Of a DNA stretch of 64,000 nucleotides, positions 20,052-26,349 are shown piece after piece. Source of the DNA: Thermobifida halotolerans (GTDB taxonomy: Bacteria; Actinomycetota; Actinomycetes; Streptosporangiales; Streptosporangiaceae); NCBI RefSeq assembly GCF_003574835.2, contig NZ_CP063196.1, forward strand, positions 558,001 through 622,000, read 5' to 3'. The notes beneath the pieces were generated by a model. The model was not told the origin of the DNA. It did no database searches and was given only the letters and a program-made list of their open reading frames with translations. How positions within the stretch are numbered: position 1 is the first letter of the stretch; each line of letters begins with the position of its first letter. Made by a program: the position numbers and the translations under genes.

Positions 20052-21098
20052 TCAGACGCCGAGTACGGCGGGCTGCGGGGCCGGGGTCAGGGTGCGGCCC
20101 ACCAGCGTGGGCAGGGTCGCCGCCAGGTGCGCCAGTTCGTCCAGGTCGGAGCCGGTCAGCGCCTGCGGCCCGTCGCACAGCGCCGTCTCCGGACTCGGAT
20201 GCACGTCCACGATGATGCCGTCGGCGCCCACCGCGACCGCCGCGCGCGACAGCGGCAGCACCAGGTCGCGCTTGCCGCCCGAGTGCGACGGGTCCACGAC
20301 CACCGGCAGGTGCGACAGCGCCTGCGCCACCGGCACCGCGCTGATGTCCAGGGTGTTGCGCGTGGCCTTCTCGAAGGTGCGGATGCCGCGTTCGCACAGC
20401 ACGATGTCCAGGTTGCCGCGCTGGGCGATGTACTCGGCGGCCATCAGCCACTCCTCGATGGTGGCGCTCATGCCGCGCTTGAGCAGGACGGGCCTGCCCG
20501 CCTCGCCCGCGGCCTGCAGCAGCGCGAAGTTCTGCATGTTGCGGGTGCCGATCTGCAGCATGTCCGCGTAGGAGGCGACCAGTTCCACGTCGCCCGCGTC
20601 CACCACCTCGGTCACGATCGGCAGGCCCGTCTCGTCGCGCACGTCCGCCAGGATCTTCAGGCCCGCCTCGCCCAGCCCCTGGAAGGCGTAGGGGGAGGTG
20701 CGCGGCTTGTAGGCGCCACCGCGCAGCAGGGAGGCGCCCGCGCGCCGGGCCATCAGCGCCGCCTCCAGGGTCTGCTCGGGGGTCTCCACCGCGCACGGTC
20801 CGGCGATCACCGTCATGTGGTCGCCGCCGATCGGCACGCCCGCCACGCGCACCACCGACCGCTTCGTGGTGTTCTCCCTGCTGACCAGCTTGTAGGGGGT
20901 GGAGATCCGCAGTACGTCGGCGACGCCCGGAAGGGCGCTCAGGTCGAGGCTCCCGAACCGCTGGACATCGCCGACAAGCCCGATGATGGTCCGGCTCACA
21001 CCCCGGGTCACATAGGCCGCACCGCCCGCGGAGGCGACGAGGTCCACGATTGAGTCGATGTTGTCGGAAGTGGCGTCGGGTGCCATGACGATGACCAT
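20052..21098 (-). CDS. aroG: 3-deoxy-7-phosphoheptulonate synthase (AroG/AroF, type I beta)
   Basis: Condenses phosphoenolpyruvate with erythrose 4-phosphate, the entry step of the shikimate pathway. The 348 residues comprise an N-terminal ferredoxin-like regulatory domain (about 1-75) and the TIM-barrel synthase with IAGPCAVET, GAYKPRTSPYAFQGLG, QIGTRNMQNF, LLKRGMS, CERGIRTFE and DPSHSGGKR. This is the Bacillus/Thermotoga-type enzyme. Upstream lie an aromatic-rich leader peptide and a terminator, so expression is probably attenuated by aromatic amino acid supply. The position matches M. tuberculosis aroG (Rv2178c), two genes from pknL. Confidence 0.95.
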   Translation of the reverse strand: MVIVMAPDATSDNIDSIVDLVASAGGAAYVTRGVSRTIIGLVGDVQRFGSLDLSALPGVADVLRISTPYKLVSRENTTKRSVVRVAGVPIGGDHMTVIAGPCAVETPEQTLEAALMARRAGASLLRGGAYKPRTSPYAFQGLGEAGLKILADVRDETGLPIVTEVVDAGDVELVASYADMLQIGTRNMQNFALLQAAGEAGRPVLLKRGMSATIEEWLMAAEYIAQRGNLDIVLCERGIRTFEKATRNTLDISAVPVAQALSHLPVVVDPSHSGGKRDLVLPLSRAAVAVGADGIIVDVHPSPETALCDGPQALTGSDLDELAHLAATLPTLVGRTLTPAPQPAVLGV

Positions 21099-21157
21099 TG
21101 AACGCTGTCCTTACACGCGGTGTGGAAAGTGGGACGCAGCGGGAGGTCCGGGCAGAC

Positions 21158-21189
21158 AAAAAAGCCCCGGGCCTGTCGGCCCGGGGCTT
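21158..21189 (-). terminator. Attenuator terminator in the aroG leader
   Basis: On the minus strand a perfect 12-bp stem (AAGCCCCGGGCC and complement) with a 4-base loop is followed by a run of T. It is one of the few hairpins in this window with a true T-tract. It lies between the leader peptide and aroG, so it must be bypassed for aroG expression. Confidence 0.85.
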
Positions 21190-21203
21190 CGAAGTCGTCC
21201 GTG

Positions 21204-21275
21204 TCAGCGCAGCGCTTGTCGGGCGACCGATCCCGTGGGCCGGTAGCCATAAAAGCGCCAGAAGTTCCGCTGCAT
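21204..21275 (-). CDS. Aromatic-rich leader peptide of aroG
   Basis: A 23-codon frame beginning MQRNFWRFYGYRP: five of residues 5-11 are Phe, Trp, Phe, Tyr, Tyr. The TGA is 14 bases before the terminator stem. The clustered aromatic codons would stall ribosomes when Phe, Tyr or Trp-tRNA is short and so favour antitermination, a classical attenuation design for a DAHP synthase. A TATAGT -10 box ends seven bases before the ATG, so the leader mRNA is probably leaderless. Confidence 0.8.
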   Translation of the reverse strand: MQRNFWRFYGYRPTGSVARQALR

Positions 21276-21282
21276 GGGAGCG

Positions 21283-21288
21283 ACTATA
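21283..21288 (-). promoter_or_regulatory. -10 box of the aroG leader transcript
   Basis: TATAGT on the minus strand, seven bases before the leader-peptide ATG at 21275, so transcription would start at or next to the ATG. The matching -35 region is weak (TTCACC about 18 bases upstream). Confidence 0.55.
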
Positions 21289-21386
21289 GCGCACGGGGAG
21301 GACGATGGTGAAGCCGTGGGGGGCATGGGAGGGGGAACGAGAACCTGAAAGGATGACAATGCACCGATGAGCAGGAGAGAGAGCGA

Positions 21387-21989
21387 TTGTCTGAGCGACG
21401 GCTGCCACCAGGGCAGTATGTGCCGAGCGGATGGCCCGCCGTGCACTATGGCCCGGTGCCGCGGTTCCGCCCGCAGCGCTGGGACCTGCGGGTCTACGGT
21501 GCCACGGCGGGGGCGGGGCAGTACCGGTGGGACTGGACCGAGTTCGAGGAGTTGCCGCGCGTCGACGTGGTCGCGGACTTTCACTGCGTGACCAGGTTCA
21601 CGATCACGGACGTCCGGTGGCGGGGGGTGGCCGCCGCCACCCTGGTGGAGCTCGCCCCGCCGGCCGAGGACGCGACCCACGTCATGGTCTGGGCCGAGTA
21701 CGGCTACAGCGCGAACCTGCGCATGGACGACTTCCTCCGCCCCGACGTGCTGCTGGCCACCCACCGCGACGGGGAGCGACTGTCCCCCAAGCACGGACAC
21801 CCGGTGCGTCTGGTGGTTCCGCACCTGTACGGCTGGAAGAGCGTGAAGTGGGTGCGCGCCATCGAGTACCTGACCGTCGACCGGCGCGGGTTCTGGGAGG
21901 AGCGCGGCTACCACAACGTCGCCGACCCGTGGGCCGAGCAGCGCTACTCCTACCAGGAGGAGCCCGGGGAGGGACCGCCCCTGGACTGA
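21387..21989 (+). CDS. Sulfite-oxidase-like molybdopterin oxidoreductase
   Basis: A 200-residue single-domain protein of the oxidoreductase molybdopterin-binding family (sulfite oxidase/MsrP fold). ADFHCVTRFT carries the molybdenum-ligand Cys; the family blocks YGYSANLRMDDFL, LATHRDGERLSPKHGHPVRLVVPHLYG (read in parts) and GWKSVKWV are intact. No signal peptide, so probably cytosolic, unlike MsrP. The start is TTG 21387 with AGGAGAGAG upstream; no ATG or GTG fits as well. The physiological substrate is unknown. Confidence 0.85.
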   Translation: MSERRLPPGQYVPSGWPAVHYGPVPRFRPQRWDLRVYGATAGAGQYRWDWTEFEELPRVDVVADFHCVTRFTITDVRWRGVAAATLVELAPPAEDATHVMVWAEYGYSANLRMDDFLRPDVLLATHRDGERLSPKHGHPVRLVVPHLYGWKSVKWVRAIEYLTVDRRGFWEERGYHNVADPWAEQRYSYQEEPGEGPPLD

Positions 21990-25062: not shown

Positions 25063-26234
25063 GGTCGTTCGACCCCTTCCGATGGTGAGGTGGCGGACGG
25101 GATGCGATCCGCCGCGAGATGGTCGGCGTACCCGGGCAGCCGCCCCGTGGCCAGGGCCTCGGCCATGGCGTCCCCGGTGGCCGGGGTGAACAGCACCCCG
25201 TGCCGGAAGTGCCCGACGGCCAGGTGAAGTCCCCGCACCCGGGTGGGCCCCAGCAGCGGCTCGTTGTCGGGCGGGCCGGGGCGCAGCCCCACGCAGGTCT
25301 CGGCGATCTCCAGTTCGGTGACCCCGGGAACCAGTTCGCGGGCGTCGCGCAGGATCTCCCAGACCCCGCCGACGGTCAGCCGGGTGTCGAAGCCCATCTC
25401 CTCCTGGGTGGCGCCCAGGACGATCTCACCGTCGGCGCGCGGCACCAGGTAGACGGGAGAGCCCCTGACCAGGCCGCGCACCGTGCGGGCCACGACCGGC
25501 TCCGCCCCGGCCGGGGTGCGCAGCCGCAGCAGTTGCCCCTTGACCGGCCGTAGCGGGGGCACCACACCGGCGGGCAGTCCGGCGATCCGGGAGGTCCACA
25601 CGCCCGCGGCGAGCACCACCTGGCCCGCGTCGACGGTGGCGCCGCCGCCCAGGGCCACGCCGCGCACGGTGCCGCCGTCGACCACCACCCGCGTGACCCG
25701 GTCGGTCACGAACACCGCGCCGCGCGCCGCGGCGGCCGAGCGCAGCGCCGCGGCCAGGCGGCGCGGGTCCACCGAGTGGTCGTCAGGCGCCAGGATGCCG
25801 CCGCGCACCGAGGGGGCCAGCATCGGTTCGAGACGGCGGCACTCACGCGAGGTGAGACGCTCGGTCCTGACGCCGAGCCGGTCGCGCACCTCGCCCAGTT
25901 CGGTGAGCGTGGCCAGGTCGTCGGGGTCGAAGGCCACCTGGAGGGTGCCTTCGGTGCGGTAGCCCGGGTCGACGTCGGTGTCCTCGGCGAGCTCGGCGAC
26001 GAAGCCGGGGTAGCGGTCCCGGGAGCACAGCCCGAAGCGCATCAGCGACTCCTCGCCGAAGACCGCCTCGGTCGCGGGGGTCAGCATGCCCGCGGCCACC
26101 CCCGACGCGGCGCCCGGCTCCTCGGCGCAGACCACGGTCACCCGCATGCCCAGGCGGGACGCCCGCCAGGCGGTGACCAGACCGATCAGCCCGCCCCCGA
26201 CGACCAGTACGTCCGGGGATGAGCGCGTGTCCAC
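25059..26234 (-). CDS. thiO: Glycine oxidase ThiO
   Basis: A FAD enzyme of 391 residues that oxidises glycine to the imine used by ThiG. Dinucleotide-binding motif VVGGGLIGLVTAWRAS near the N-terminus; ATQEEMGFDTRLTV, VGLRPGPPDNEPLLG and VGHFRHGVLFTPATG are typical of ThiO/DadA-like oxidases. It uses the aerobic route in place of ThiH. First gene of the operon. The GTG start follows directly after a TPP riboswitch whose last helix abuts the ribosome-binding site. Confidence 0.94.
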
Positions 26235-26239
26235 AACGC

Positions 26240-26335
26240 TCCACTCCCTTCGCCGGTATGACCCGGATCAGGTTCTGCGGTCGGAGGCTGGCAGCCTCCC
26301 TCTCAGCCGGGTTCCACCCGGCTCCCGCGGGGATT
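26240..26335 (-). ncRNA. TPP riboswitch (THI element) controlling thiO-thiS-thiG
   Basis: The minus strand carries the conserved blocks of the thiamine pyrophosphate aptamer: GGCTGAGAGGGAGGCTG, then AACCTGATCCGGGTCATACC, then GGCGAAGGGAG. The closing helix runs straight into the purine-rich ribosome-binding site of thiO with no separate terminator, which favours control of translation initiation. A TAGAAT -10 box lies at 26350-26355, placing the transcript start just before the aptamer. Confidence 0.95.
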
Positions 26336-26349
26336 TCGCTTCCGTCCGC

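Follow-up and report, generated by a model that had tools for sequence, protein, structure and literature searches.

The DAHP synthase gene in the window (the whole 64-kb stretch of DNA analyzed here) is very probably controlled by a ribosome-mediated transcription attenuator that would respond to the supply of charged aromatic tRNAs. As judged from the letters and their counterparts in relatives, the element is most likely leaderless. Its leader reading frame contains a cluster of codons for the end products of the pathway, and in the window an intrinsic terminator lies between this leader and the structural gene. We also identified a candidate antiterminator, mutually exclusive with the terminator and conserved in relatives; an earlier note on this DNA had named none. 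The parts are as follows.

21307..21312, minus strand: -35-like hexamer TTCACC, 18 nt before the -10 hexamer
21283..21288, minus strand: -10 hexamer TATAGT, ending 7 nt upstream of the leader ATG, a spacing that predicts a leaderless start
21204..21275, minus strand: leader reading frame, MQRNFWRFYGYRPTGSVARQALR, 23 residues plus stop
21243..21263, minus strand: aromatic codon block, Phe5 Trp6 Arg7 Phe8 Tyr9 Gly10 Tyr11
21237..21248, minus strand: segment A, GGCTACCGGCCC; partner of B (hairpin) or of terminator arm C (antiterminator)
21222..21229, minus strand: segment B, CGGTCGCC; partner of A (off state) or of E (on state)
21194..21200, minus strand: segment E, GGACGAC, shortly 3' of the leader stop; partner of B in the antiterminated fold
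21161..21190, minus strand: intrinsic terminator, arm C (loop side GGGCC) and arm D, 13 pairs, loop GACA, T-rich tail
21108..21112, minus strand: AAGGA, a sequence resembling a ribosome-binding site for the DAHP synthase gene
20052..21098, minus strand: DAHP synthase gene, type I-beta

Leader, promoter and terminator

The earlier note had placed a DAHP synthase gene downstream of a leader and a terminator, and matches to TIGR01361 (389 bits) and NF006421 (474 bits) at 21098-20052 bear this out. The 23-codon leader with Phe-Trp-Phe-Tyr-Tyr among residues 5 to 11 is likewise present as described (F5, W6, F8, Y9, and Y11). The note's 12-bp, T-tracted terminator stands as a T-tailed terminator, with its length corrected to 13 pairs; 12 of these are Watson-Crick and one is a G-T pair, which explains the earlier count. 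The hairpin has a 4-nt loop and starts 13 nt past the leader stop, and the RNA from leader to terminator folds 6.3 SD below the mean of 200 dinucleotide shuffles. That the terminator belongs to an upstream gene is ruled out by the nearest gene on the opposite side of the locus (21387-21989, plus strand), which is divergent, so that the minus-strand terminator sits between the leader promoter and the DAHP synthase gene. T-boxes, riboswitches, and other Rfam riboregulators are ruled out by Rfam scans of the window at gathering cut-offs and of its own locus and four relatives at E values up to 0.1. One sub-threshold match was seen, Thr_leader over the aromatic leader of Actinomadura kijaniata (L149, 1338-1460, plus strand; 31.8 bits against a cut-off of 55). 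The sole gathering match in the window is a TPP riboswitch (RF00059, 66 bits) at 26228-26338 on the minus strand, adjoining ORFs that look like thiamine-synthesis genes.

TTCACC and TATAGT, spaced by 18 nt, form the sole promoter-like site of this kind in 21060-21420 (shuffle mean, 0.0; n = 50). The earlier proposal that the leader mRNA is likely leaderless agrees with the promoter geometry of all 67 leaders compared, in which a TAnnnT hexamer ends 6 to 9 nt, mostly 7, upstream of the start codon; the starts in these 67 were chosen chiefly on aromatic content and secondarily on the -10 box. From this spacing, transcription is predicted to begin at, or no more than a base or two from, the start codon. 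Leaderless leader peptides are reported from RNA-seq in Streptomyces lividans, according to the available part of that study (PMC8079986).

Conservation of the leader

Conservation of the aromatic codons had been proposed as a check on the reading. Among the best 80 of 568 named relatives in the GTDB collection, a set hence biased toward close relatives and scored with the -10 box as part of the leader criterion, 78 of 80 loci carry a similar leader, which excludes a lack of conservation. Thermobifida fusca (L116) is one of the 78; the two loci of these best 80 at which the leader is missing belong to Trebonia kvetii (L186) and Actinokineospora auranticolor (L193). Phe, Trp, and Tyr are all encoded in 75 of the 78 leaders drawn from the best 80 of 568, and in all 78 a strong hairpin (arms of at least 11 nt, T tails uncounted) starts 6 to 18 nt past the stop. 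The aromatic residues persist while their order varies, as in FWRFYGY, FWFWYGD, YFFWFDQ, and YWFGFGY.

The same was seen when the -10 box was not used to pick starts. A match was found in 51 of 60 genomes searched, the window's own included, and all 30 loci fetched first (the window's own plus the 29 that matched next best) have a similar leader. Starts at 29 of the 30 were the same as in the later, -10-aided pick; at L019 the automatic start was a GTG, and the start adopted later is an ATG 9 nt upstream.

A chance origin of the leader is rejected. We used a rule calling for an ORF of 10 to 40 residues whose ATG or GTG lies 5 to 9 nt behind TAnnnT and which has at least four Phe, Trp, or Tyr among residues 2 to 14. 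The leader is the sole ORF found to satisfy it on either strand of the 64-kb window. The rule was passed by 70 of 80 upstream regions from the best 80 of 568 named relatives, against 0 of 80 reverse strands of the same regions and 0 of 4,000 Markov-random sequences.

Across the class, 127 of 394 sampled genomes have a DAHP synthase of this type at an E value of 1e-60 or below. Within the window's own family (f1; 41 sampled genomes), by our reading of the two match tables, a full-length match to R1, a model of the leader, lies just upstream of the gene and on the same strand in 40 of 40 gene-bearing genomes, 31 of which are absent from the model. Outside this family a leader was found at 27 of 84 DAHP synthase genes examined, 6 through R1 and 21 of 78 by direct reading. 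This count leaves out G043, G204, and G267, together with second, ~53% identical copies in G127, G179, and G331; two of the 78 upstream stretches read directly run into a contig end (28 and 82 nt), and three candidates lacking a -10 box are uncounted. By our reading of the listings, Trp is in the aromatic cluster of 16 of these 27 leaders. R1 matches at an E value of 0.01 or below occur in 213 of 394 genomes, a figure that is no tally of leaders because many of the matches span the terminator part only; full-length matches alone were used.

A candidate antiterminator

Segment A lies directly 3' of the aromatic codons and reads GGCTACCGGCCC in the window and GGCGACGGACCC in one large clade. Its 3' half is complementary to the loop side of terminator arm C (GGGCCG or GGGTCC), and its 5' half to segment B (CGGTCGCC or CCGTTCGCC), which is also complementary to segment E. 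In an alignment of 30 sequences, A and C are 90.4% paired with 15 double-change cells, and the paired percentage, the double-change cells, and the covariation score are each reached by 0 of 500 shuffles; slid registers give at most 56.4% pairing. The number of A:C pairs with a double change (two) and of further pair types (six) is not above shuffles, 464 and 466 of 500 of which reach them. On a DAHP synthase tree of the 78 named loci from the best 80 of 568, arm C shows one change of type; the compensatory change therefore counts as one event, which leaves the paired-rows test without power. In a comparison of own with swapped duplexes across 64 distinct leaders, 0 of 2,000 permutations were as good as the leaders' own A:C, B:E, and A:B duplexes, which were the more stable, and the same held in 21 representatives below 80% identity (0/2,000).

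A 5' terminator that is fixed, or that works through a protein or Rho, with the leader a by-product of a leaderless promoter, is an improbable reading. The terminator is indeed very stable and wins the full-length equilibrium fold, and a 2005 survey, in its accessible part, reports mutational tests in which the ilvB and leuA leaders of actinobacteria failed to act like classical attenuators (PMC1262725); mutations of the candidate codons in the S. coelicolor ilvB leader are reported there to be without effect (PMC1262725). However, such a terminator leaves unexplained why aromatic codons are conserved in a changing order, why A:C and B:E complementarity is kept in divergent leaders, and why the codon sets differ with the gene downstream. 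We give a still smaller chance to a functional or ribosome-arresting small peptide, in which the conserved C-terminal part (RTVARQ-LR) would act as a peptide. C-terminal residues are conserved in many leaders of the window's family, but their codons overlap segment B and, in the window, also a stretch complementary to the 5' end of the leader; moreover, the C-terminal peptide differs in other families.

How the attenuator would work and which codons it would sense

In the ribosome-mediated attenuator that we favor, transcription would start at the leader ATG and a ribosome would initiate on the leaderless mRNA. If all three aromatic amino acids were plentiful, it would cross codons 5 to 11 and cover A, or later free A to pair with B; the terminator C:D would then form, and transcription would end before the DAHP synthase gene. 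If charged tRNA-Phe or tRNA-Trp were short, the ribosome would stall at codons 5 to 8, where it would hide at most the 5' part of A and leave CCGGCCC largely free. B could then pair with E, A would capture arm C, and RNA polymerase would continue into the DAHP synthase gene. A stall at Tyr9 would have a weak effect, and one at Tyr11 little effect, or it might even favor termination.

We folded the transcript as far as the terminator loop while a ribosome hid 15 nt either side of the first P-site base. Averaged over 64 leaders, the leader's hold on arm C has a probability of 0.86 when codon 5 or 6 is in the A site, 0.85 at codon 7, and 0.76 at codon 8; it is 0.53 at codon 9, 0.35 at codon 11, and 0.11 at codon 14. 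Capture runs at 0.76-0.86 for codons 5 to 8 versus 0.11-0.41 for codons 10 to 18. A footprint of 11 to 17 nt moves the stalling edge by one to two codons (21 representatives). A ribosome at the stop codon also frees A in equilibrium folding (0.86-0.87), and the full-length minimum-energy fold gives the terminator as winner in spite of a ribosome masked at codon 6, in all 6 of the leaders whose folds were inspected. Since A is free at the stop codon and the terminator wins the full-length fold, termination in the fed state would have to depend on timing or kinetics.

Across the 64 leaders, Phe occurs most often at codons 5 and 8, Trp at codons 6 and 8, and Tyr at codons 9 and 11. The masked folds lead us to predict that Phe and Trp would be sensed strongly, and Tyr weakly through codon 9 and little or not at all through codon 11. 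One leader might sense all three aromatic amino acids, as the earlier note had it, since all three are encoded in 75 of 78 leaders (best 80 of 568), but the masked folds make equal sensing of Tyr doubtful. Sensing is probably unequal, because in these folds the antiterminator strand stays largely free only when the stall comes no later than about codon 8; a stall at Tyr9 is borderline, and one at Tyr11 would cover it.

It is quite possible, if a little short of an even prospect, that the attenuator works and senses only Phe and Trp, the Tyr codons being structural or historical. Codons 5 to 8 hold Phe and Trp, and Tyr is found mainly at codon 9 (51 of 64) and codon 11 (35 of 64), where weak or little antitermination is predicted; codon 11 is Asp in 21 of 64. 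The Corynebacterium glutamicum aroR leader, with Phe-Tyr-Phe, answers to Phe and not to Tyr in the portion of the report at hand (PMC11802643). Against this, of 64 leaders, 59 have Tyr (51) or Phe (8) at codon 9, which suggests selection, and with a shorter assumed footprint this codon still antiterminates (0.83 at 11 nt).

The earlier note had also raised the idea of a whole-pathway sensor. DAHP synthase is encoded in the window's genome by one type I-beta gene and at three type II loci, of which one is beside a TrpG-like ORF, one beside an isochorismatase-like ORF, and one is split over several frames. By our own reading of the neighboring ORFs, the three type II loci look to be in secondary-metabolite surroundings, which makes a whole-pathway role for the leader plausible; the attenuated gene would then be the main DAHP synthase for primary metabolism. 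None of the three (L108, L111, and L112) has an aromatic leader behind a -10 box.

Related leaders before other genes

R1 also matches loci in another genus (g53, probably Streptomyces) in which the next gene encodes chorismate mutase. At L086 the family models NF005894 and TIGR01808 identify that gene, and tblastn with its protein does so at all 30 loci fetched. A pattern taken from the TrpL1 peptide of S. lividans matched 0 of 9 genomes, 8 of which belong to g53. A model built from 14 loci of this genus, R2, has a match at an E value of 1e-8 or below in 99 of its 101 genomes, 4 of which contributed to the model. The leaders, e.g., MLTHPTFLFTYGNRPTGCHGRAA, encode Phe and Tyr and no Trp in all 29 that are readable of the 30 (L279 is a partial locus and is omitted); Trp is present in 2 of the 14 R2 model loci (L064 and L085). 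R2 recovers the window's own leader at an E value of 3e-7, which argues that the DAHP synthase and chorismate mutase leaders are related in sequence and layout. A chorismate mutase also lies behind an aromatic leader in two other families (L088 and L099). Loci at which an aromatic attenuator before chorismate mutase was noted are L278 and L273-L302.

In the window's genome, R2 finds no second element beyond the DAHP synthase leader (its other five matches have E values of 0.016 or above). PF01817 finds no AroQ chorismate mutase there, and 13 of 14 control genomes have one; the window's genome presumably uses another chorismate mutase type. It does have a Trp-only, leaderless-looking leader, MRPTLMTQHQWWRRC, with a hairpin (L317, 879-926), before a trpE-like gene that scores 280 bits with TIGR00564, below the curated cut-off. 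At L089 (~2000-2130) the leader MQRYYWFTWPARSGPVGVNLR precedes a type I-alpha DAHP synthase (TIGR00034), so aromatic leaders precede more than one type of this enzyme. Before type II DAHP synthases, none was found behind a -10 box at 7 loci of 6 g53 genomes. Given the Trp-only leader of the trpE-like gene and the mostly Trp-free leaders of chorismate mutase, the codon set tends, with exceptions, to follow the branch of the pathway fed by each enzyme. Leaders with a run of Thr, e.g., MQRAFVTTTPESPPAR, are likewise matched by R1 at L069, L097, L098, and L100, where the downstream ORFs look by eye like threonyl-tRNA synthetases.

Relation to known attenuators

In the Escherichia coli ilvGMEDA and thrABC operons, one leader combines codons for several amino acids made by a common pathway and has a Shine-Dalgarno start. 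The window's leader shares this multi-end-product design; the E. coli leaders are for other amino acids.

The other comparisons draw on the available portions of the papers cited. The aroR leader (Phe-Tyr-Phe), which lies before aroF, a DAHP synthase gene of C. glutamicum, is responsive to Phe and not to Tyr (PMC4046766, PMC11802643). Like the window's locus, it is an aromatic leader before an actinobacterial DAHP synthase gene, and it acts by ribosome-mediated attenuation. The quoted aroR run, compared here by description and not as RNA, has Phe and Tyr and no Trp, whereas Phe, Trp, and Tyr are found together in 75 of 78 leaders here (best 80 of 568) and the gene is of type I-beta. The trpL/trpE attenuators of Corynebacterium and Streptomyces resemble the window's element in having a leader, an antiterminator, a terminator, and a conserved GC-rich triple complementarity (PMC1262725, PMC8079986), and trpL is leaderless in S. 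lividans (PMC8079986), as we predict for the window's leader; they differ in having Trp codons alone and a different gene. E. coli pheL/pheA and pheST likewise use attenuation through aromatic codons, but these are for Phe only and the downstream gene is not a DAHP synthase (PMC11802643). The E. coli DAHP synthase genes are described as repressor-controlled (PMC11802643).

Upstream of Phe/Tyr operons, the 2005 survey of RNA regulation in actinobacteria, with T. fusca, S. coelicolor, and Streptomyces avermitilis among its genomes, reported no conserved RNA structures in its available portion (PMC1262725). In the accessible part of the S. lividans study, eight leaders are listed, two for Leu, two for Trp, and one each for Ala, Ile, Met, and Thr (PMC8079986), and its main text, to the same extent, lacks the terms chorismate, pheA, aroG, and shikimate (PMC8079986). 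Our literature search, which covered titles and abstract openings of the top-listed papers and few subscription journals, turned up no Phe-Trp-Tyr leader or chorismate mutase attenuator in actinomycetes. Ribosome-mediated attenuation is already known, and we class the Phe-Trp-Tyr leader of DAHP synthase as a new form of it.

Significance

Set against the 2005 survey, as far as that source was available (PMC1262725), 78 of the best 80 of 568 named relatives, T. fusca (L116) among them, carry a leader before the first enzyme of the shared pathway. Tentatively, and with slightly more doubt than confidence, we propose that leaderless aromatic attenuators form an ancient family common to the actinomycetes. 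One RNA switch would have had its codon set re-tuned in each branch, to Phe, Trp, and Tyr before DAHP synthase and to Phe and Tyr before chorismate mutase, beside separate Trp-only trpE leaders. Codon position would weight the amino acids, strongly for Phe and Trp and weakly for Tyr, and one mRNA would compute a weighted sum of three tRNA signals. A three-aromatic leader is a natural test of such codon-position weighting of several tRNA signals. The chorismate mutase version, with its matches in 99 of 101 g53 genomes, would control aromatic precursors of antibiotics and would offer a handle for strain engineering.
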